From Cyanocohniella sp. LLY (GTDB taxonomy: Bacteria; Cyanobacteriota; Cyanobacteriia; Cyanobacteriales; Nostocaceae): a stretch of DNA of 64,000 nucleotides. The stretch covers positions 27,904 to 91,903 of the forward strand of contig JAKOMP010000014.1 in the NCBI GenBank assembly GCA_022241785.1, in the 5' to 3' direction. Below are positions 54,249 to 64,000 of the stretch, piece by piece (position 1 is the stretch's first letter; each line of letters starts with the position of its first letter). The notes below the pieces were generated by a model, which searched no databases, was not told where the DNA came from, and saw only the letters and a list, made by a program, of their open reading frames with translations. A program made the position numbers and the translations under genes.

Positions 54249-54851
54249 ATGACACAAACTGACTTATTTTCAGCCATTGCCGTCAATATCCCCAACACGC
54301 TCATCCTGAAAGTTTCCCACGAGCAATTTGTTGATCTGGCAATCGCTAACCGAGACTTACAATTAGAACGAAGTGCTACGGGTGAGTTAATTATTATGCC
54401 ACCGACCGGAAGCGATACTGGCAATAAAAACCTAGATATGGAAGGGCAATTGTGGCTGTGGAATCGTCAGAGTAAACTGGGTCAAGCTTTTAACTCTTCA
54501 ACAGGTTTTCATCTTCCTAATGGTGCTAATCGCTCTCCTGATGCAGCCTGGGTACGTCAAGAAAAATGGGATGCCCTCACTTTAGAACAGCAGGAAACTT
54601 TTGCGCCTATTTGTCCTGATTTTGTGCTGGAACTACGTTCTAAAACGGACTCTTTAGAAAAGTTGCAAGCCAAGATGAAGGAATATATAGAAAATGGAGC
54701 TTGTTTAGGTTGGTTAATTGACCGACAAAATCAACGAGTGGAAATTTATCGTCCAGGTAGAGATGTGGAAGTTTTAAATCATCCTATAAATTTATCAGGG
54801 GAAGATGTTTTACCTGGGTTTGTGTTGGATTTAACCGAGGTTTGGAGTTGA
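54249..54851 (+). CDS. Uma2-family endonuclease (DUF820)
   Basis: LERSATGELIIMPPTGSDTGNKN, SPDAAWVRQEKWD, PDFVLELRSKTDSLEKLQAKMKEYIENGACLGWLID. Confidence 0.93.
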   Translation: MTQTDLFSAIAVNIPNTLILKVSHEQFVDLAIANRDLQLERSATGELIIMPPTGSDTGNKNLDMEGQLWLWNRQSKLGQAFNSSTGFHLPNGANRSPDAAWVRQEKWDALTLEQQETFAPICPDFVLELRSKTDSLEKLQAKMKEYIENGACLGWLIDRQNQRVEIYRPGRDVEVLNHPINLSGEDVLPGFVLDLTEVWS

Positions 54852-54885: not shown

Positions 54886-56034
54886 TTAAAGCATTTGATG
54901 AATTTCATTGATTGCACTAATTATCAGAGAAGATGTCCTTTCTATTTCGGCTTTGGTTGTAAATTTACCAACACCAATTCTTAACGCTCCCTCAATCATA
55001 TTTTCTGAAAGATTCAGAGATTGTAAAACGTGAGATGGTGCAACAACGCCTGATGAACAAGCAGCACCTGTAGAAATAGCTAATTGGTGGCGAATCCTAG
55101 CAATAATGGCACTATTCGGAATATTTGGTATAGAAATATGTAAGTTACCTGATAAGCGGTTGTTTAAGTCTCCATTCACCACTAAGTCAGGGATGTTTGA
55201 TTGTAGTAGGTTTTGCAGTGTATCTCGCAGTTGGGCGATCGCCTTTTCATCTGCTTCCATCTCCAAACCTCTCAACCTGCAAGCTTCCCCCAAACCAGCG
55301 ATTCCGGGGACGTTGAGTGTACCAGATCTGAGTCCTTGTTCGTGTCCACCACCGTAAATCATCGCTGGGAGATCATGATCTTTTCTGACTACCAACGCAC
55401 CAACGCCTTTGGGTGCGTAGAGTTTATGGCCAGAAATCGCCAGATAGGTGATACCCCAGTCTTGAAAGTTGAGGGGAATTTTCCCGACGGCTTGGGAAGC
55501 ATCACATAAAAAAGGGATATTGTAAGAGGATGCGATCGCACCAATTTTTTCTATGGGGTAAATTGTCCCGACTTCGTTGTTAGCAGCCATCACACAAAGT
55601 AAGGAAGCCCCCTCACAGCAGACTTTTTCTAGATGTTCTAAATCAATCTGGGCTTGTTGATTGACTTTTAACCAAATAATTTCCGCTAGTCCTTTTTTAG
55701 CTAAAGCTTTGCAGGTATCTAAAACGGCTTTGTGTTCAACTGGAGAAACAATGATTTTAGCGGGGGTATTTTGTTGAGCAATATGTCCTTGAATGGCTAA
55801 ATTAATGCTTTCCGTTGCACCTGATGTAAAGATAATTTCTTTGGGTGAGGCGTTGATTAATTCTGCTATTTGTTGACGGGCTTGTTTAACTGCTTTTGCT
55901 GCTGTGTCTCCATAACCATGATCTACACTATTAGCATTACCAAAGGCGGTAGTCATATAGTACATGACTTTCTCGGCTACTCTGGGGTCAACGGGAGTAG
56001 TTGAGTGGTAATCGAGGTAGATTATGTTAGTCAT
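54886..56034 (-). CDS. Cysteine desulfurase (IscS/NifS/DndA family)
   Basis: IYLDYHSTTPVDPRV, ISGHKLYAPKGVGALVVRK (PLP Lys), STGAACSSG (catalytic Cys loop). Confidence 0.93.
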   Translation of the reverse strand: MTNIIYLDYHSTTPVDPRVAEKVMYYMTTAFGNANSVDHGYGDTAAKAVKQARQQIAELINASPKEIIFTSGATESINLAIQGHIAQQNTPAKIIVSPVEHKAVLDTCKALAKKGLAEIIWLKVNQQAQIDLEHLEKVCCEGASLLCVMAANNEVGTIYPIEKIGAIASSYNIPFLCDASQAVGKIPLNFQDWGITYLAISGHKLYAPKGVGALVVRKDHDLPAMIYGGGHEQGLRSGTLNVPGIAGLGEACRLRGLEMEADEKAIAQLRDTLQNLLQSNIPDLVVNGDLNNRLSGNLHISIPNIPNSAIIARIRHQLAISTGAACSSGVVAPSHVLQSLNLSENMIEGALRIGVGKFTTKAEIERTSSLIISAINEIHQML

Positions 56035-56038
56035 TTTT

Positions 56039-56530
56039 TTAACGCGGAGTCACGCTAAGGAAATGCAAAGTAACGCAGAGAATTATCATAACAACTTTCT
56101 CTGCGTCTGGAGCGTGAGATTTAATTAGGGCTTGCTGAAAGGTTAAATATTCTAAAATTAGTAATCTTAAGTAATCTAACATTCTTAGGTATGATTTGAT
56201 ATTTTCGTATTCATGAGAGTTATGCAAATACAACTGGGAAATATTAGGAAAATCAAACACTCGTTTTTGTTTGAGTTGTTTAATTGCTTGTTGTGTATTC
56301 TCTATATATCCTCTGGCTTTAATTTGACTAGCGTAACCTCGAATATCTGTAGTTAATAGTTGAATTTCTTCTAATAATGTAAATTCCGTTTCTGATACAG
56401 GGAATTGATGAGCGATCGCTTGTCTTTCTGATTTACTATTTTGATAGTCAATTGTTAATTTTTCTAACAGTTGAATGATGTAATTTTTAGTGATTTCAGG
56501 ATTTTGATTAGTCAGGGTAGTATTAGTCAT
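56039..56530 (-). CDS. Hypothetical protein (163 aa), helical
   Basis: Tightly packed between cysteine desulfurase and ATPase genes, same strand; C-terminal end runs into a repeat-like sequence. Confidence 0.6.
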   Translation of the reverse strand: MTNTTLTNQNPEITKNYIIQLLEKLTIDYQNSKSERQAIAHQFPVSETEFTLLEEIQLLTTDIRGYASQIKARGYIENTQQAIKQLKQKRVFDFPNISQLYLHNSHEYENIKSYLRMLDYLRLLILEYLTFQQALIKSHAPDAEKVVMIILCVTLHFLSVTPR

Positions 56531-56541
56531 TGTTCACTTTT

Positions 56542-58365
56542 CTACTCATTTTCTAAAAACCTTCTCGCCACTCTCCCCCAATCAATGCGCGTATCTACAG
56601 CATTTTCTTTGCGTTTACCATCTAATTCATCCTCATATCTTGCCCATGCCATGAGTAGTAGTTTCAATCCACTTAAGGAGTTAATTAAACGAGAACGTAA
56701 AGTATCTATATCAGCGTTATCTACATCCTCTTCTAAAATTTCTACTAACTTTTGATAAGCAGGATGATTAGTATTCAAAGTAACAATAATTGCTCCCCCT
56801 CTAGGTTGAACAGTGAAAAATTCAGGGCTATCAATAGGAGCTTGGGTAAAGGTATATTTTAAGCCATCATCTACTGTGGTTGCTGCTAATAATTCTGCTT
56901 GGGCTTCCGTAACTCCTTCTTCTTTTAAAGTTTCTTTAATGACTTGTTTCCGTTCTTCCTTTGGTAATTGTTCATCTTCATCACTTTTACCTTTATAGCC
57001 TTGTGATTGACGTTCTTGAGTTACAGTCGTAGCTACTTTTTCAGGTTTGTAGGGGTCGTGTCCGTAGCGTTTTTCCGAGGTGCGAGTGCCTTTTGTTTGG
57101 GCTTTGATTAAGCGACGAATCAAACTTAGTTGACTGCTAATTTTATGGGCTAATTCTAACAGAGGCAGTTTTGGATCTTCATCTTGGAGTAATTCTTCTT
57201 TTAGTTCAGCAACAGTTTTGCCTTCTTCTAATAAAGATTCAATATCTAGTTGTAAAATCTCTCCAAAATTACGGGCTGATTGTTTGTTATTGGTAACTCC
57301 AAAAATATCATCAAGAGATGGGGGAAATTCAACTTCAATCCCCCACCACCGTTCTGTAGGGTCGTAATTATTAACTAGGTTTTGGTCTAATTCTAATTCT
57401 CGCCCCGCACGCACTACGGAAACTCCCAAATTTTTGGCGGCGTGTTGTCCATGTGGTAAGCTACCGGGATTTTTTCCGGGTTCGGCTTGACGTGCTTCTT
57501 CTTTAGCGTAAGAAAAACGCACTTTTACATCATGTTCTTTGTCTTTAAAATTAATTTTATAAGTAGCTTCATAAGATGTATCGCCTTGCCAAGGACAGAA
57601 CATTGCTTGATTATCAAATGGTTGAGGACAGGAAGTTTTTTCTATTAAATAACCTGGGTCGTTGGGTAGGGTATATTTTTCTAAAATCAGGCTATATAAA
57701 GCATCTAAATCAAAAGCTACCATGCGGATTTTGACTGCACCGCTATTAATAAATTTGCGATACATTCTCCCAATCACAAATTCAGAATTATCAATAATTG
57801 CTTTGCTCGTTCGCCACATACAACGGTCGATTTTTGACCATACTACTAATGTGCCACTATCACCAAATTTATGCCCGATGTTTCGCCAAATCATGGGAAT
57901 TGGTTTAGCATTCGGTTCTGGTACTTCTGTCAGTCGGCGATTTTTAATTTCATCTAAATCTAGATAACTATGCAGTGCATTTTCTAGGCCATTTTGCCAT
58001 GACCACACATCAACCCGTTGACATTGAGAAATAGAAGACGAGGGTAAACCCATACCAAAACGACCGATTCCGGTGTGTTGATCTTCATCTAAATGAGTAC
58101 CGTTACCAAATTGCAGGGCGAGACGTAAAACATTCGCATCCATCCCACAACCATTATCTAACACGGCGATTTGTTCAATGCGCGATCGCCTTTTCCCTTC
58201 CACCGATTGTTTGCGTTCGCCACACAGCAGTTCTACTTGCGATGCACCAGCTTGAATGGCATTATCCATTAATTCGGCTAAAGCATAAGCGGCGTTTTTA
58301 TAACCGTTATCCCGCATGGCTTGGACTGCGAGGTGAGTGGGAACGATATCATGGGCGTTATTCAT
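56542..58365 (-). CDS. HSP90/MutL-type (GHKL) ATPase
   Basis: Probable start MNNAHDIVPTHLAVQAMRDNGYKNAAYALAELMDNAIQAGASQ; N-box ELMDNA, DNGCGMD, GIGRFGMGLP; start overlaps the helicase stop. Confidence 0.88.
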   Translation of the reverse strand: MNNAHDIVPTHLAVQAMRDNGYKNAAYALAELMDNAIQAGASQVELLCGERKQSVEGKRRSRIEQIAVLDNGCGMDANVLRLALQFGNGTHLDEDQHTGIGRFGMGLPSSSISQCQRVDVWSWQNGLENALHSYLDLDEIKNRRLTEVPEPNAKPIPMIWRNIGHKFGDSGTLVVWSKIDRCMWRTSKAIIDNSEFVIGRMYRKFINSGAVKIRMVAFDLDALYSLILEKYTLPNDPGYLIEKTSCPQPFDNQAMFCPWQGDTSYEATYKINFKDKEHDVKVRFSYAKEEARQAEPGKNPGSLPHGQHAAKNLGVSVVRAGRELELDQNLVNNYDPTERWWGIEVEFPPSLDDIFGVTNNKQSARNFGEILQLDIESLLEEGKTVAELKEELLQDEDPKLPLLELAHKISSQLSLIRRLIKAQTKGTRTSEKRYGHDPYKPEKVATTVTQERQSQGYKGKSDEDEQLPKEERKQVIKETLKEEGVTEAQAELLAATTVDDGLKYTFTQAPIDSPEFFTVQPRGGAIIVTLNTNHPAYQKLVEILEEDVDNADIDTLRSRLINSLSGLKLLLMAWARYEDELDGKRKENAVDTRIDWGRVARRFLENE

Positions 58366-59455
58366 GGGTTTTCCTCCAAACGTCTTCCCAATTGTGGAAG
58401 GCTGATGCGACTGAACCAAAACCAGGGAGTTGGCTATCGACAACGGTGACAATTTCAGCCGTAGCATTACCCCCAGCTTTGATTCCTCTGATGGCGCGTC
58501 CCACCATTTGGCTGTAGAGAACAAGGGATTTGGTGGGACGGGCGATAACGGCGGCGCTGGTTTTGGGTGCATCGAAGCCAGTGGTTAAAACGCCGTAGTT
58601 ACATAAAATCTTGGTTTGGGTTTGTTCGTCTTTAAAGCTGTGAATCAGTCTTTCTCGTTCGGACTTGGGGGTTTCACCTGTAACAGCATCAGCATTCAAG
58701 CCTCGTAAACGCAATATCGAAGCGATAAGTCGGGCGTGTTCCACGGAGGTATTAAACACGATGATGCGTTGATGATGTGGGGCGAGTGCTTCTAGTTCGA
58801 GGATGATGCAGAGGTTGCGTTGTTCGTCTGCGGCTAACCGATTGAGAATATATTGAGGGATGTCTAAGTCTGTATTAATCCGCTTCAAGTCTTGGGGAGT
58901 AAGTTCAATCCCAGTTTCATAAAATAAGGAACGATAGTTAACTTTAGCCAGGTATTGTTGATCTACGAGATAATCAATGGGGTTGTCATAACCGGGAATT
59001 TCTAAAATAACTTTCTGTTGGGCGAAGAATTTTGCTAGTTGTGCATCGGTGTTAATATCAGCCCAAGTGCGTCCGGGTGTGGCGGTTAAACCTAATAAAG
59101 CGGTGGTTTCGTAGGGGACGACGAGAGAATCTAAAACGAGTTTATAGGTTTCGGCTACTGCTTGATGGGCTTCGTCGATAATTACCAATGAACAACGCAC
59201 ACCCAGTTGATTAATAAAGCGGATACTCTTTTTGGCAGCGTGATAGACTTTCGCTAATCCTGCTACTACTAAGCCATCTTGCGCTTGTGCTAAGTCTATC
59301 TCATGGTTGCCCCAGAAGCGGTAAGTTGAAAGGGTGCGATTTCCTAAACTGTCCCAGGCTTTTTGAAATTCTGTAGCTGCTTGTTCGCAAAGTTCTTCAC
59401 TATAGGCTAACCAGATTACTAATGTGGGTTCATTGTTTCTTAAGCATAAACCCAA
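58358..59455 (-). CDS. SF2 (DEAD/DEAH) helicase, N-terminally truncated
   Basis: SLVIIDEAHQA (motif II), GLTATPGRTW (motif III), VLTTGFDAPKTSAAVIARPTKSLVLYSQMVGRAIRG (V/VI); no Walker A in the ORF. Confidence 0.85.
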   Translation of the reverse strand: MGLCLRNNEPTLVIWLAYSEELCEQAATEFQKAWDSLGNRTLSTYRFWGNHEIDLAQAQDGLVVAGLAKVYHAAKKSIRFINQLGVRCSLVIIDEAHQAVAETYKLVLDSLVVPYETTALLGLTATPGRTWADINTDAQLAKFFAQQKVILEIPGYDNPIDYLVDQQYLAKVNYRSLFYETGIELTPQDLKRINTDLDIPQYILNRLAADEQRNLCIILELEALAPHHQRIIVFNTSVEHARLIASILRLRGLNADAVTGETPKSERERLIHSFKDEQTQTKILCNYGVLTTGFDAPKTSAAVIARPTKSLVLYSQMVGRAIRGIKAGGNATAEIVTVVDSQLPGFGSVASAFHNWEDVWRKTHE

Positions 59456-60570
59456 TTAGGAGTAAAACCTTGTAGAGTTGCTAACGAAATTAAAGGTATG
59501 GTTGTAATTTCATAAGCCTTCAGCAAAACTTCTAGGTTTAATAAATCCTCAGCTTGACTAACTTTTAAGTCAAATACAAATGATTCAGTATATTTTAACC
59601 ATTGATTTTTAGATATATTCTCATAGGCAACAGTTAAGGCGCGATGTTGCAATTCGACAAAATCATGAAAATATTTTCTAGCTGGTAAATTGTTAGATTT
59701 AGAAGAATTAACAGATTGCGTAGTTGGAATTATATTCCATAGTTGATTATGAGCTACAAAAGACCAGGGTAGATAATGATCTAATGAAATTTCATTCTTA
59801 TTTAATAAAATCTTAGAATAAATACATTCAATATCTCTATACTCTAAAACAGTTTTCCAATATTTCTTTTGCTCTGGTAGAGAATCCCTTTGTTGTGGCA
59901 TAAATAATTTATTAACCACATTAGGGGTACTGGGGTTCTTTTGTTGCATATAATTTAACCATTCCCAAGATGCCCAACCCCTAACTATTGCGTAATTTTC
60001 CTTTAAATATTTAATCCATTCTGGGTGCAAAATAATGCTATCACTATCTTTATAAATATTTGAATTAAAACGATACAAGGGTTTATAAACATCAAAATAT
60101 TGATTAGCTATTTCTGGAGTTCTCAGAACAACTTCATAATTTACCTCAAAGTTATGCAGTTTTTCTAATAAAAATGGACGTAATAATCTAAAGGGAACAT
60201 TTTTCTTAAAATAGTTAATAATTCCTGTTAGATTGTTTTGATTAATTGTTTTTCTTAATAATGATTTATCTGTATCTGTAAATTTTAAGATTGGTTCTGT
60301 AATGTCTAATATCAGACTATCTAATAGCTTATCTATTCGGTCTTGTTTTCCAAAAGAAAGTTTAAAATAATTGTGAGGATACCAAGCATTAGCTAACATT
60401 TCAACAATAATTTCTCGAAAGCCAATAGATAATGAACTATTGAAATTATTTCTTTTTACAATATCTAACAATGATAAGAAATACAGGTATTTATAAGAAT
60501 TAGTTCTTGAATCAAATAATCCTGCTAAAGCTGAAATGTTTAAATTATCATAGCTTGGTAAATTATACAT
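59440..60570 (-). CDS. HNH endonuclease-like protein
   Basis: CIYSKILLNKNEISLDHYLPWSFVAHNQLWNIIPTTQSVNSSKSNNLP resembles an HNH motif. Confidence 0.75.
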   Translation of the reverse strand: MYNLPSYDNLNISALAGLFDSRTNSYKYLYFLSLLDIVKRNNFNSSLSIGFREIIVEMLANAWYPHNYFKLSFGKQDRIDKLLDSLILDITEPILKFTDTDKSLLRKTINQNNLTGIINYFKKNVPFRLLRPFLLEKLHNFEVNYEVVLRTPEIANQYFDVYKPLYRFNSNIYKDSDSIILHPEWIKYLKENYAIVRGWASWEWLNYMQQKNPSTPNVVNKLFMPQQRDSLPEQKKYWKTVLEYRDIECIYSKILLNKNEISLDHYLPWSFVAHNQLWNIIPTTQSVNSSKSNNLPARKYFHDFVELQHRALTVAYENISKNQWLKYTESFVFDLKVSQAEDLLNLEVLLKAYEITTIPLISLATLQGFTPNWVYA

Positions 60571-60620
60571 ATTTAATTAATATTTAAAAATTAAAATATA
60601 ATATTTAACATTGGTGAGAA

Positions 60621-61421
60621 TTATAAATTACAAGCTAAACAAGGTAAATTATCATCTTCTTGAGCTAAAATTTCTTCTAATGTTTCAGCTACATAAGGAG
60701 TAAAAGCTTCTTTTTTCTCTTTAGCCATTAACTTCTCATGTTGAGCAATAATTTCATCCTTGCGTTCTAGAAGCTGCAATAAACTTTCCCCATCTGTCCA
60801 TGTATAGGTACGCCCATCAGCATGATTAGTTTCATACTCAACAGCCTTTTGAAATAAATCAGGATGTTCCTGGGCTAACATTACCCATTCATACTTGCGT
60901 TGGAAGAAACAGAAGAAACACCCAGAACGACTGCGCCAGCGATAATAGTCAGGGAGTCCAATTCCACTTTCTTCTAATAGCCGAATAATATCAGCCCTAA
61001 CTAAACCCCGTTCCTTAAAAGGAAACACAGGTTTAATATTCGGTTTAGTGGAGATATAACCATCACGGTTTTCATCAGCACGAATGCCAACGTAACTGAT
61101 AGCCTCATCATCCCCCACAAAATCCTCCAACGGCTTAATTTTCATCTTCACCGTACACCAACGCATTTGGGGGGAAGGTAATAAACCATCATGAATCGCT
61201 AACCAATGGTCAAAACCGCGTTTGTCACTGAGATAATGAATTTTAATCCCCAGACGGGCTTTAATGCGGTCAAGATATTCGTAAGTTTCCGGTAATTCCT
61301 TATGGGTATCACAAAAAAAGTATTCCATCTCTGGAATTTCCTTATGCAGTAATACCGCTAAAGCCGTGCTATCCTTTCCCCCAGAAAGCCCTAATATATG
61401 TCTAACTCTTTTCTCTGCCAT
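60621..61421 (-). CDS. DndC/PAPS-reductase-like ATP-pyrophosphatase
   Basis: LGLSGGKDSTALAVLL (SGGxDS P-loop), RWCTVKMKIKPLE, SGCFFCFFQRKYEW. Confidence 0.88.
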   Translation of the reverse strand: MAEKRVRHILGLSGGKDSTALAVLLHKEIPEMEYFFCDTHKELPETYEYLDRIKARLGIKIHYLSDKRGFDHWLAIHDGLLPSPQMRWCTVKMKIKPLEDFVGDDEAISYVGIRADENRDGYISTKPNIKPVFPFKERGLVRADIIRLLEESGIGLPDYYRWRSRSGCFFCFFQRKYEWVMLAQEHPDLFQKAVEYETNHADGRTYTWTDGESLLQLLERKDEIIAQHEKLMAKEKKEAFTPYVAETLEEILAQEDDNLPCLACNL

Positions 61422-61673
61422 GCTGATTTTTTAGTGCTGTTTGGCAAGTATATTAGTAATCCTAATATCTTAGCAAATATGTAAAGTTAATGTGTAGTGT
61501 TTCATAAAAAATGTTAAAAATACTTAGTAATATTACTGAAATTATCTGTGGTTTATAAAATAAGCATTTACGCTTTTATACAAATAAATTTCAGGCGTAG
61601 TTTAGTTTCCTAGTACAGCAAGGCGTAAATAGGCATACCATTTTAAATCGTCAAACAGCCTGTTTGATAAGCC

Positions 61674-61708
61674 TTTTGACTTTTGACTTTTGACTTTTGA
61701 CTTTTGAC
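61674..61708. repeat. 7-bp tandem repeat TTTTGAC x5
   Basis: ttttgac ttttgac ttttgac ttttgac ttttgac read directly. Confidence 0.93.
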
Positions 61709-61757
61709 TTCCGCGCAGCGGTACTAGTGCTTTCTGGCGTGAGCGCATCCAAAATTG

Positions 61758-62177
61758 TTAGCTTTCTTCATCAGATTTGAGCCAGTTTTCTACTTTTAAA
61801 TGAGAAACGCGGGAAAATTCACGAACATTGGCTGTCACAAGAGTTAGGCCAAGGCTTAAAGAATGAGCCGCAATTAATAAATCATTTCCTCCAATCGGTT
61901 GACCTTGCTCTTCTAAATCTGTACGTATTTCTGCATAATATTGCTCTACAGGATGAGTTATCGGTAGTATTTCGATACTATCCAAGATAATTTCAAGTTT
62001 TTCTATAAGTTTTTTAGAGTTCTTTTTTCTTGCCCCAAATTTTGATTCACAAGCTACGATAATACTTGTACAAACTTTATCTTCTCCGATATTTGGAATT
62101 TTGGAAAATATCACTCCTCTGGGGTTTTTAATTAGTTCGGAAATGATGTTTGTATCTAATAAGTATAAATAACTCAT
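61758..62177 (-). CDS. PIN-domain toxin (VapC family)
   Basis: YLLDTNIISELIK, GGNDLLIAAHSLSLGLTLVTANVREF. Confidence 0.93.
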   Translation of the reverse strand: MSYLYLLDTNIISELIKNPRGVIFSKIPNIGEDKVCTSIIVACESKFGARKKNSKKLIEKLEIILDSIEILPITHPVEQYYAEIRTDLEEQGQPIGGNDLLIAAHSLSLGLTLVTANVREFSRVSHLKVENWLKSDEES

Positions 62178-62179
62178 TT

Positions 62180-62410
62180 TTAAAACTCAATATCATCTAA
62201 AGGTAATAATCCTTCATCTAAATCGGCTAAGTCTTCATCTAGTGGTTCAAGAGTGGAAAGGGTTTCTAGCAGGGATTTTTTCTGAATAGGGGAAATGATA
62301 GCGAAGGGAATACCATTTTGGATGATAGTGAGGAGTTCACCTGTTTTTTTAGCTTGGTTAATTAAGTTTTGAACAGTTTCGGGAAGTTCGGTAAAGGTAA
62401 TTTGTTTCAT
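62180..62410 (-). CDS. Antitoxin (Phd/YefM or VapB type)
   Basis: 76 aa directly upstream of the PIN toxin; ITFTELPETVQNLINQAKKTGELLTIIQNGIPFAIISPI. Confidence 0.85.
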   Translation of the reverse strand: MKQITFTELPETVQNLINQAKKTGELLTIIQNGIPFAIISPIQKKSLLETLSTLEPLDEDLADLDEGLLPLDDIEF

Positions 62411-62537
62411 GGTAGTTTCTCAAGATTAAGGGATAGAAATTCATCTTAATTTTTTAAGCTTAGGTAGCTTAGATACTCAACTTATTCAAGAAGTTGGGTA
62501 TCTAGTTTTATTCTCTCTTACCATCATAATGCTTATA

Positions 62538-63726
62538 TTAACCGGCATTTTTCCCCGTTATTTCATCATTACCCTTATCCCCAATCTGCGTCACCGTCTC
62601 TGGTAAATCAGCATTTAAAATGCGTTCACTCAACCTTGCTAAAATTGCTTGGCGTAACTGCTGTTCATCGGGTAATTCTGCCAAAATCTTATCAACAATC
62701 TTCTCAACCTGCGACTCTCTCCCATGATCTACCCATACCATTTGATGGATTTCCTGACCATCGGGACGAGTCATGGTAATGCGTCGCGCCTCAAAACCTT
62801 CACCCTTGGCGGCGACTTCCTTTTGCAAAGCTTCCAAATTCTTAAACCGACGCACCAAATCTGCTAATTTCATCTCAAACGCAGTTGCATCATCATCAGT
62901 CCAGGATTCCGCCGGTTTATCCGCTACAATCATCACCAAAGCTTCCAACCATTGAGCATCACTCTTGGTTTCATCCGATGCGGCGAGAATAAAGGTTTTA
63001 GTAAAGGTTCAATACACTTTCCCGCCAAATAATTCGCCCTTACCCGCAAATCTTCCCTGAGTTTTGTTTCCTGACTTCTCACCCCAAAGGCTTCATAAAT
63101 CAGTTTTTGACAATCACTCAATAAATGATCATAAGCTGTATGAATATCTCTCAGGGAATGAACTAACTTAGTCCGTAAAGTTCTCGCCGTCACGCCATCA
63201 TCCCCAGTTTCCGTCCCAATTGGGGGTAAATTACAAGCTGCTGGTAAAGCTTTAAACAACAATTCATCGGGTTCAACAGTCGTTTGTAATACTTTTAAAA
63301 TGGCTCTGGGTTCTGCTTCCAGTCTTTGGGTTTGTTTGGTATATTTAGGTAATTTTTTGACAAATTGATAAAGCGGAGTAACCACCGTTAACAGCGTGGC
63401 GTTACGCACCTTACCTAAATTCTTTAATTGAGGATTGCGTAAAATTGCTTCTAATTCTTTGAATACTTCCGCCCTTAATCCCACGACTGCAAAATACTTC
63501 ACAGCAAATCGTTCCGGATATTTTACTAATAATTCAAAATGTTCTGTTCCCAATACCGGAATAAATGTCCCGTCTTGATACAGTCCCAAATCATCAGCGT
63601 GATATAACAGCACAGCCGCTAAAATCACGGGAATAGCACCTTGTTTCACACCAAATGGTGGTGCTGCTAAATATTGATAGAGTAAATCAAACCTTTGGCT
63701 GGTTTCTGTGGCGGCTAAATTTACTT
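62538..63726 (-). pseudogene. Large ATPase-like defense-associated protein, C-terminal remnant, frameshifted and truncated
   Basis: LAATETSQRFDLLYQYLAAPPFGVKQGAIPVILAAVLLYHADDLGLYQDGTFIPVLG... continues after a frameshift near 62990 as TFILAASDETKSDAQWLEALVMIVADKPAESW... Confidence 0.65.
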
Positions 63727-63778: not shown

Positions 63779-64000
63779 TTAACAACAGAAATACCAATTC
63801 AGTAAAATCCTTCTTCTAAAATTATTAAAATTAGTTAAGCCATAAGCCCTTCTTTTAATGAGCTTAATTTTCTGATTAATCCCCTCAACAATACCTTGAG
63901 TAGTTCTGTGATCAAAATAAGCGAGAATCTCATCTATCCATCTACTAATGGTTCGACAACTTTTTGGGAAAAATTTATAAGCCGTTTGAGTCCATTCCAG
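63779..64000 (-). mobile_element. ISL3-family transposase, C-terminal part, runs off window
   Basis: Reverse read LEWTQTAYKFFPKSCRTISRWIDEILAYFDHRTTQGIVEGINQKIKLIKRRAYGLTNFNNFRRRILLNWYFCC*; matches the ISL3 DDE C-terminal pattern (EG.NxKIKLIKRRAxGxxNFxNFR). Confidence 0.85.

Follow-up and report, generated by a model that had tools for sequence, protein, structure and literature searches.

A 64,000-nucleotide stretch of the genome of Cyanocohniella sp. LLY (the window, in whose coordinates all positions below are given) carries a run of genes between positions 54886 and 63719, wholly on the minus strand, whose open reading frames (ORFs) overlap or are separated by short gaps. A first-pass annotation had described this tight packing correctly and had proposed a defense locus with unclassified sulfur chemistry. 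PADLOC profiles place the sulfur genes in a known family. The gene at 54886-56034 encodes an intact cysteine desulfurase of 382 amino acids (aa) that matches SspA (1.5e-142) as well as DndA (1.9e-143), in line with the IscS/DndA-like enzyme seen at first, and sspA is the final operon gene in relatives. The supposed DndC-like protein (60621-61421; 266 aa, intact, with the motif SGGKDS) is instead SspD, a PAPS-reductase-like ATP pyrophosphatase: it matches the SspD profile over its full length at 4.4e-112 and scores far lower as DndC (1.3e-9) or BrxP (4.8e-15). The large ATPase relic that had been noticed upstream (62538-63719) is a relic indeed, and it can now be named as the frameshifted last third of SspC, an AAA+ ATPase of about 1170 aa (PDLC02781 positions 764-1104 of 1104, 4.5e-100), although SspC had been listed among the genes not visible here. 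Because the profiles identify SspD, SspA and SspC, the locus is, as far as its sequence tells, an Ssp DNA-phosphorothioation (PT) system with SspA, SspD and an SspC relic as its modification genes, and not a case of unclassified sulfur chemistry.

Further genes lie between sspD and sspA. An intact GHKL ATPase of 607 aa, MORC/MutL-like, is encoded at 56542-58365 (PF13589, 3.3e-21); its likely start is at 58365, and a longer ORF start would overlap the helicase gene. This gene, at 58358-59455, encodes a RadD-like superfamily 2 (SF2) helicase (HEL) which is N-terminally truncated by comparison with intact relatives of 540 aa, a point that had gone unremarked when the helicase was first recognized. 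It is preceded by the gene of an HNH nuclease of 376 aa (59440-60570; PF13395, 1.1e-8). At 56039-56530 follows a gene for a 163-aa protein without any Pfam or PADLOC match. Its first ~132 residues resemble a small conserved protein that close Nostocaceae relatives have at the corresponding position (87-94% identity to ORFs of 127-132 aa in loci L027, L029 and L030). It occupies the position of the PLD nuclease gene of other lineages, and was rejected as a fragment of that nuclease as the sequences are unrelated. In loci L027 (6342-7077) and L030 (13266-14001) a pair of genes for 114-aa and 132-aa proteins stands where Nostocaceae lost PLD; the window protein is the second member of this pair, which has no family match and could be toxin-antitoxin-like.

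Thirteen further cyanobacterial genomes have this gene set as well, and it is spread over nine phyla, far beyond chance. In whole or in part, the cyanobacterial relatives show the series SspB, SspC, SspD, a variable insert, the 540-aa helicase, the GHKL ATPase, usually a protein of about 310 aa, and SspA. The ~310-aa protein, which does not belong to the 163-aa family of the window, is a PLD/HKD nuclease. Scanning 84,980 species genomes gave 78 loci in nine phyla (Cyanobacteriota, Pseudomonadota, Chloroflexota, Bacillota, Actinomycetota, Bacteroidota, Acidobacteriota, Armatimonadota and Chlorobiota), and a scan of viral contigs gave three more; 80 of these hold a GHKL ORF. HEL lies directly upstream of GHKL in 75/80 loci and PLD directly downstream in 49/80, and at least one of sspB, sspC and sspD is near GHKL in 67/80. 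The cassette conserved in the nine phyla consists of a RadD-like helicase and a GHKL ATPase of MORC/MutL type, in most cases joined by a PLD/HKD nuclease. The distinct restriction-type module of the first-pass annotation is thus borne out as an unlisted module, but not with HNH at its core: the core is helicase, GHKL and PLD, the last of which is missing here. Three putative viral contigs (IMG/VR; L120, L121 and L122) carry complete SspBCD-HEL-GHKL-PLD loci, which may be phage cargo or misbinned host DNA, and the system is also found on plasmids, some of them predicted to be conjugative; an intact copy resides on plasmid A of the laboratory strain Trichormus (Anabaena) variabilis ATCC 29413 (L173, NC_007410.1; AVA_RS27570 to AVA_RS27530).

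Co-occurrence was strong in two genome samples that had not been chosen for gene neighborhood. A close GHKL match was present in 14 of 386 cyanobacterial genomes, the window's own included, and all 14 carry SspC (p = 1e-13), which makes 14 of the 37 genomes with strong SspC matches. Among 398 Pseudomonadota, six have GHKL and 11 have SspC. In all six GHKL genomes HEL-GHKL-PLD adjoins ssp genes, and one of the six has SspE too; the remaining five SspC loci contain SspFGH in three cases and something else in two. The cassette therefore accompanies 6/11 SspC loci in this sample versus three for SspFGH, or 5/10 once the one GHKL genome that served as seed is left out. Loci of this kind went into the SspC profile, which may favor their subtype.

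Catalytic motifs are conserved in all three proteins of the cassette. The helicase family matches RadD in the PDB (1.2e-42), and its motifs GKT, DEAH and QMxGRxxR are invariant in 33 sequences. In the GHKL family E31 and D70xGxG are near-invariant (58 sequences), and the best PDB sequence match of the family profile is MORC2 (6e-9). The motif GVSVVRAGREL differs at one position from the MORC-specific GhXhhpXXRhl, and the nearest PDB sequences are MORC2-4. A predicted GHKL model (predicted local distance difference test, pLDDT, 88) matches SMCHD1, MutL, MORC and Hsp90 in Foldseek. In the PLD protein H97, K99, S111, N113, N126 and E128 are invariant across 48 sequences, and the predicted model (pLDDT 92) has a fold matching the NucT nuclease. 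Two GHKL paralogs were seen around the PLD gene within a single locus in two cases (L071:4030-12540; L079:9980-13533), the former also with a second HEL.

We also looked at how far the parts of these loci are inherited together. Pairwise distances among SspB, SspC, SspD and SspA correlate closely (r 0.84-0.93; SspB-SspC 0.88), and so do those of GHKL and HEL (r 0.79). Loci without PLD usually have another candidate nuclease, namely SspE, SspFGH, HNH or GIY-YIG. Outside cyanobacteria, loci with PLD tend to lack SspE/SspFGH and vice versa (raw Fisher 5e-5); a strict exclusion was rejected, as correction for relatedness leaves 3-4 of 5 independent changes, which is not significant, and as locus L183 is a counterexample. 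A common core that accepts different nucleases is suggested by these loci, but without statistical significance when relatedness is taken into account. SspFGH genes rarely co-occur with HEL, GHKL or PLD (L103, L108 and L174). In one such case, an Agrobacterium plasmid (L174:5705-18991), HEL-GHKL comes first, an endonuclease-like protein of 359 aa next and SspFGH last, and the stretch read contains no sspBCD. Some loci have a pair of GIY-YIG and ~750-aa DGQHR/DndB-like genes after sspD (L025:10092-13016, L173:5348-8169, L153 and L157), and the same pair occurs in ssp loci without HEL-GHKL. An insert of 751 aa was rejected as SspE, being a DGQHR/DndB-like protein; other inserts of 760-786 aa are true SspE.

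The HNH motif DHY...N is invariant in 15 homologs, and relatives of this nuclease often have an N-terminal helix-turn-helix domain (~460 aa). HNH_4 proteins are linked to sspC in the window locus and even where HEL-GHKL is lacking (L161, L165, L166, L167 and L169), and SspC is found in 14 of 27 HNH-bearing cyanobacterial genomes (p = 6e-7). At window positions 59440-59460 the end of the HNH gene is joined to helicase codon ~176, and this one junction is common to most HNH-bearing Nostocales loci (also L028, L043, L046-L049, L052, L053 and L116), the HNH proteins of which differ by up to ~40%. Sharing of the deletion joint marks it as an inherited or exchanged allele. Truncated copies are scattered among intact ones in both the HEL and the GHKL trees, a sign of cassette exchange, and the junction belongs to an old cassette that has passed from one ssp locus to another. 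The ratio of nonsynonymous to synonymous substitution rates (dN/dS) is 0.21 for HNH, 0.11 for truncated HEL and 0.13 for GHKL. As proof that the truncated helicase functions the value of 0.11 is uninformative, because trees that mix truncated and intact copies imply recombination. HNH is a lineage-specific addition, and the conserved restriction core is the RadD-like helicase with GHKL and the PLD nuclease.

The window copy is a relic of an Ssp locus, as its helicase lacks residues ~1-175 of 540, Walker A included, and SspB and most of SspC are missing. Homology to sspC starts at 63719, and beyond this position lies the 3' end (63779-64000, minus strand; PF01610, 5.5e-21) of an ISL3-type transposase gene that interrupts sspC; the contig ends at 64000. 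A blastn alignment with sspC of locus L029 likewise starts at 63719 and reveals a one-base deletion near 62993 that shifts the frame. A genome-wide profile search and a search with the protein of a close relative, run without a positive control in the same genome, turned up no further piece of SspC in the assembly, whose completeness is estimated at 100%. SspB (DUF4007), which the first-pass annotation had already listed as not visible, was likewise absent from window and assembly with the Pfam profile and a close relative's protein, again without such a control; the Pfam model recognizes the SspB of a relative at 4e-97. In relatives SspB is present (PADLOC 5.9e-118) and SspC complete. The lineage of the window has also lost the PLD gene, and the HNH gene has replaced the N-terminus of the helicase. 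In several unicellular cyanobacteria SspC appears as two ORFs with a break near profile position 737 (G056:C3, G119:C1 and G145:C5), which could reflect a natural split, an insertion or decay. A toxin-antitoxin pair had been reported inside the window locus and is there, between sspC and sspD (61758-62410, minus strand): a VapC-like PIN toxin (61758-62177; PF01850, 1.6e-16; NCBIfam VapC) and a Phd/YefM-like antitoxin (62180-62410; PF02604, 3.2e-4, below the cut-off). Adjoining the locus is a gene for a Uma2-family putative endonuclease (54249-54851, plus strand; PF05685, 3e-44).

Decay also appears to follow an order across the family. Complete sspBCD accompanies the full HEL-GHKL-PLD triad in 42 of 44 loci, and the two exceptions (L032 and L050) reflect where the fetched stretch begins. 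In eight evaluable loci modification is complete but the triad is not. The full triad is lacking in every one of the 14 loci with broken or absent sspBCD (Fisher 3.6e-7, uncorrected for kinship). Loci L095 and L096 were considered as counterexamples and dismissed, sspD being present and hidden by the ORF filter. No locus gave a firm case of an intact triad next to broken modification, which hints that PT protects self DNA. The restriction arm of SspFGH is reported to be toxic without PT (PMC8092258), and toxicity of this kind would leave such an order of loss.

We compared the locus with systems already described. The cassette matches no PADLOC 2.0.0 system, nor does the window set match any named system model in full, as the first-pass annotation had anticipated; PADLOC gives partial matches only (HEL with PbeA, 4e-28; GHKL with MzaB, 1e-18; PLD with ZacB/DrmC, ~1e-7). 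SspABCD-SspE has the same modification genes, with SspA, the SspC relic and SspD in the window and SspB in relatives, but PADLOC finds no SspE among the window proteins, and the partner in most relatives is helicase-GHKL-PLD, with SspE in a few. SspABCD-SspFGH is alike in its modification module, in having a multi-protein ATP-driven restriction partner and probably in being held off by PT, yet HEL, GHKL and PLD give no SspF, SspG or SspH match in PADLOC and none is found among the window proteins. Dnd/PbeABCD likewise joins a cysteine desulfurase with a sulfurtransferase, and PbeA, the best PADLOC match of HEL, is an HKD-SF2 helicase fusion; here, the sulfurtransferase is SspD and PADLOC detects neither DndD or a CxC ABC-ATPase nor DndE, the latter two Dnd genes having been recorded as not visible from the start. 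MzaB of MZA is the nearest catalogued defense GHKL, by its ATPase domain only, and full-length similarity and partner genes are absent here. PglZ and BrxL of BREX type 4 have no match in the window locus (PADLOC). BrxL-like genes adjoin ssp genes in a few relatives (L032:4067-9646; L093:7621-8604), hinting at exchange with BREX type 4. Membership in Dnd, Pbe, BREX-4 and MZA was rejected on the failure of their defining genes.

The closest precedent for the gene arrangement is given by the MORC/paraMORC restriction-modification operons (Iyer et al., 2008; PMC2292703), in which a GHKL-S5 ATPase has an SF2 helicase and a nuclease of the HKD or HNH type as neighbors. Relatives show this arrangement, the helicase of the window being truncated. 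Those operons are methylase-based and the account does not mention PAPS-reductase or dnd genes; here phosphorothioation takes the place of the methylase, and helicase and PLD are separate proteins. No DNA methylase was found among the window locus proteins with Pfam and PADLOC, as the first-pass annotation had said of both methyltransferase and PglZ, and relatives were labelled for ssp genes and selected nucleases only. Two recent surveys covering Dnd and BREX do not mention GHKL, and we found no paper joining Ssp with the GHKL, helicase and PLD set in a search that left subscription journals and most preprints outside.

Taken together, we consider it likely that the window holds a decayed Ssp PT defense locus in which the co-inherited HEL-GHKL-PLD cassette was the restriction side and PT the protection. 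In this cassette, Ssp phosphorothioation most likely has one more restriction partner. By analogy with characterized Ssp systems, SspA and SspD of intact relatives would deliver sulfur, and SspB (a nickase) and SspC (an AAA+ ATPase) would set it into the DNA backbone as a self mark. The GHKL protein may act as a DNA clamp that closes upon ATP binding like MutL or MORC, the RadD-like helicase may use ATP to translocate along DNA or to unwind it, and the PLD/HKD protein may serve as the nuclease, so that unmodified (phage) DNA would most likely be attacked and PT-marked DNA spared. SspE, SspFGH, HNH or GIY-YIG might stand beside PLD or replace it. Several observations weigh against this picture. 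Distances of GHKL show only a weak correlation with those of SspC (r 0.39, or 0.13 without cyanobacteria), and the modification and restriction halves therefore seem to travel together but to be re-paired often. Thirteen loci have no ssp genes; eight of them are shortened by a contig end, but the best-sampled true orphans, one Microcoleus and three Chloroflexota, carry HEL-GHKL without PLD in genomes where SspC was not detected. SspE occurs together with the triad in L069 and L183, which means that the triad may be auxiliary, and joint loss of triad and sspBCD could also follow from shared decay rather than toxicity.

The invariant HEL-GHKL pair and the presence of another candidate nuclease in nearly all PLD-less Ssp loci could also mean that HEL-GHKL is a helper, clamp plus translocase, for whichever nuclease the locus has (PLD, SspE, SspFGH, HNH or GIY-YIG), and no restriction module itself. 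The mutual avoidance of PLD and SspE/SspFGH fits this, but it loses significance after correction for relatedness, L183 and L069 have both, and no HEL-GHKL genes were present in the assays of the published SspE and SspFGH systems; we regard the helper role as possible, though somewhat doubtful. SspE is activated by PT (PMC8092258), and the triad might work likewise, with GHKL or the helicase sensing PT before phage DNA is attacked and with no harm done when modification is absent. The presence of SspE in some of the same loci and the tolerance of HEL-GHKL pairs without any SspC agree with such activation, yet harmless leftovers, intact triads with broken sspBCD, should then accumulate, none were firmly seen, and the SspC-less orphans all lack PLD, which makes this rather unlikely. 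It is improbable that the Nostocales set of HNH, truncated helicase and GHKL is a working variant in which HNH has taken over. Its common junction despite HNH divergence, the low dN/dS values and the link of the HNH family to SspC elsewhere would suit a functional unit; against it, the truncated helicase is without Walker A and carries additional breaks in roughly half of the loci, the dN/dS test is compromised by recombination, and the window lacks SspB and most of SspC. Hardly credible, finally, is a chance clustering of unrelated systems in a defense island: toxin-antitoxin genes, transposases and other defense genes do intrude in many loci, but the idea is already contradicted by an order kept in nine phyla and by the strong co-occurrence in the sampled genomes.

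The cassette as restriction partner speaks to a gap noted in the SspFGH study of 2021, in which 84% of sspBCD loci had neither SspE nor SspFGH and other restriction partners were asked about (PMC8092258). The cassette is a candidate for this missing Ssp partner and may fill part of the gap in how such systems cut phage DNA; the decayed window locus is valuable as a pointer to it. That HEL-GHKL(-PLD) amounts to a widespread third restriction arm of Ssp, with a MORC-type clamp and a RadD-type translocase as an interchangeable core that reads the backbone mark and cooperates with several nucleases (PLD, SspE, SspFGH, HNH or GIY-YIG), is a broader proposal that we make tentatively, as a serious possibility short of a favored one.

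In eukaryotes, MORC-like ATPases take part in the silencing of foreign DNA. If our reading is true, MORC-like ATPases would be linked to a backbone epigenetic mark in bacteria and this would be, to our knowledge, the first one tied to phosphorothioation.

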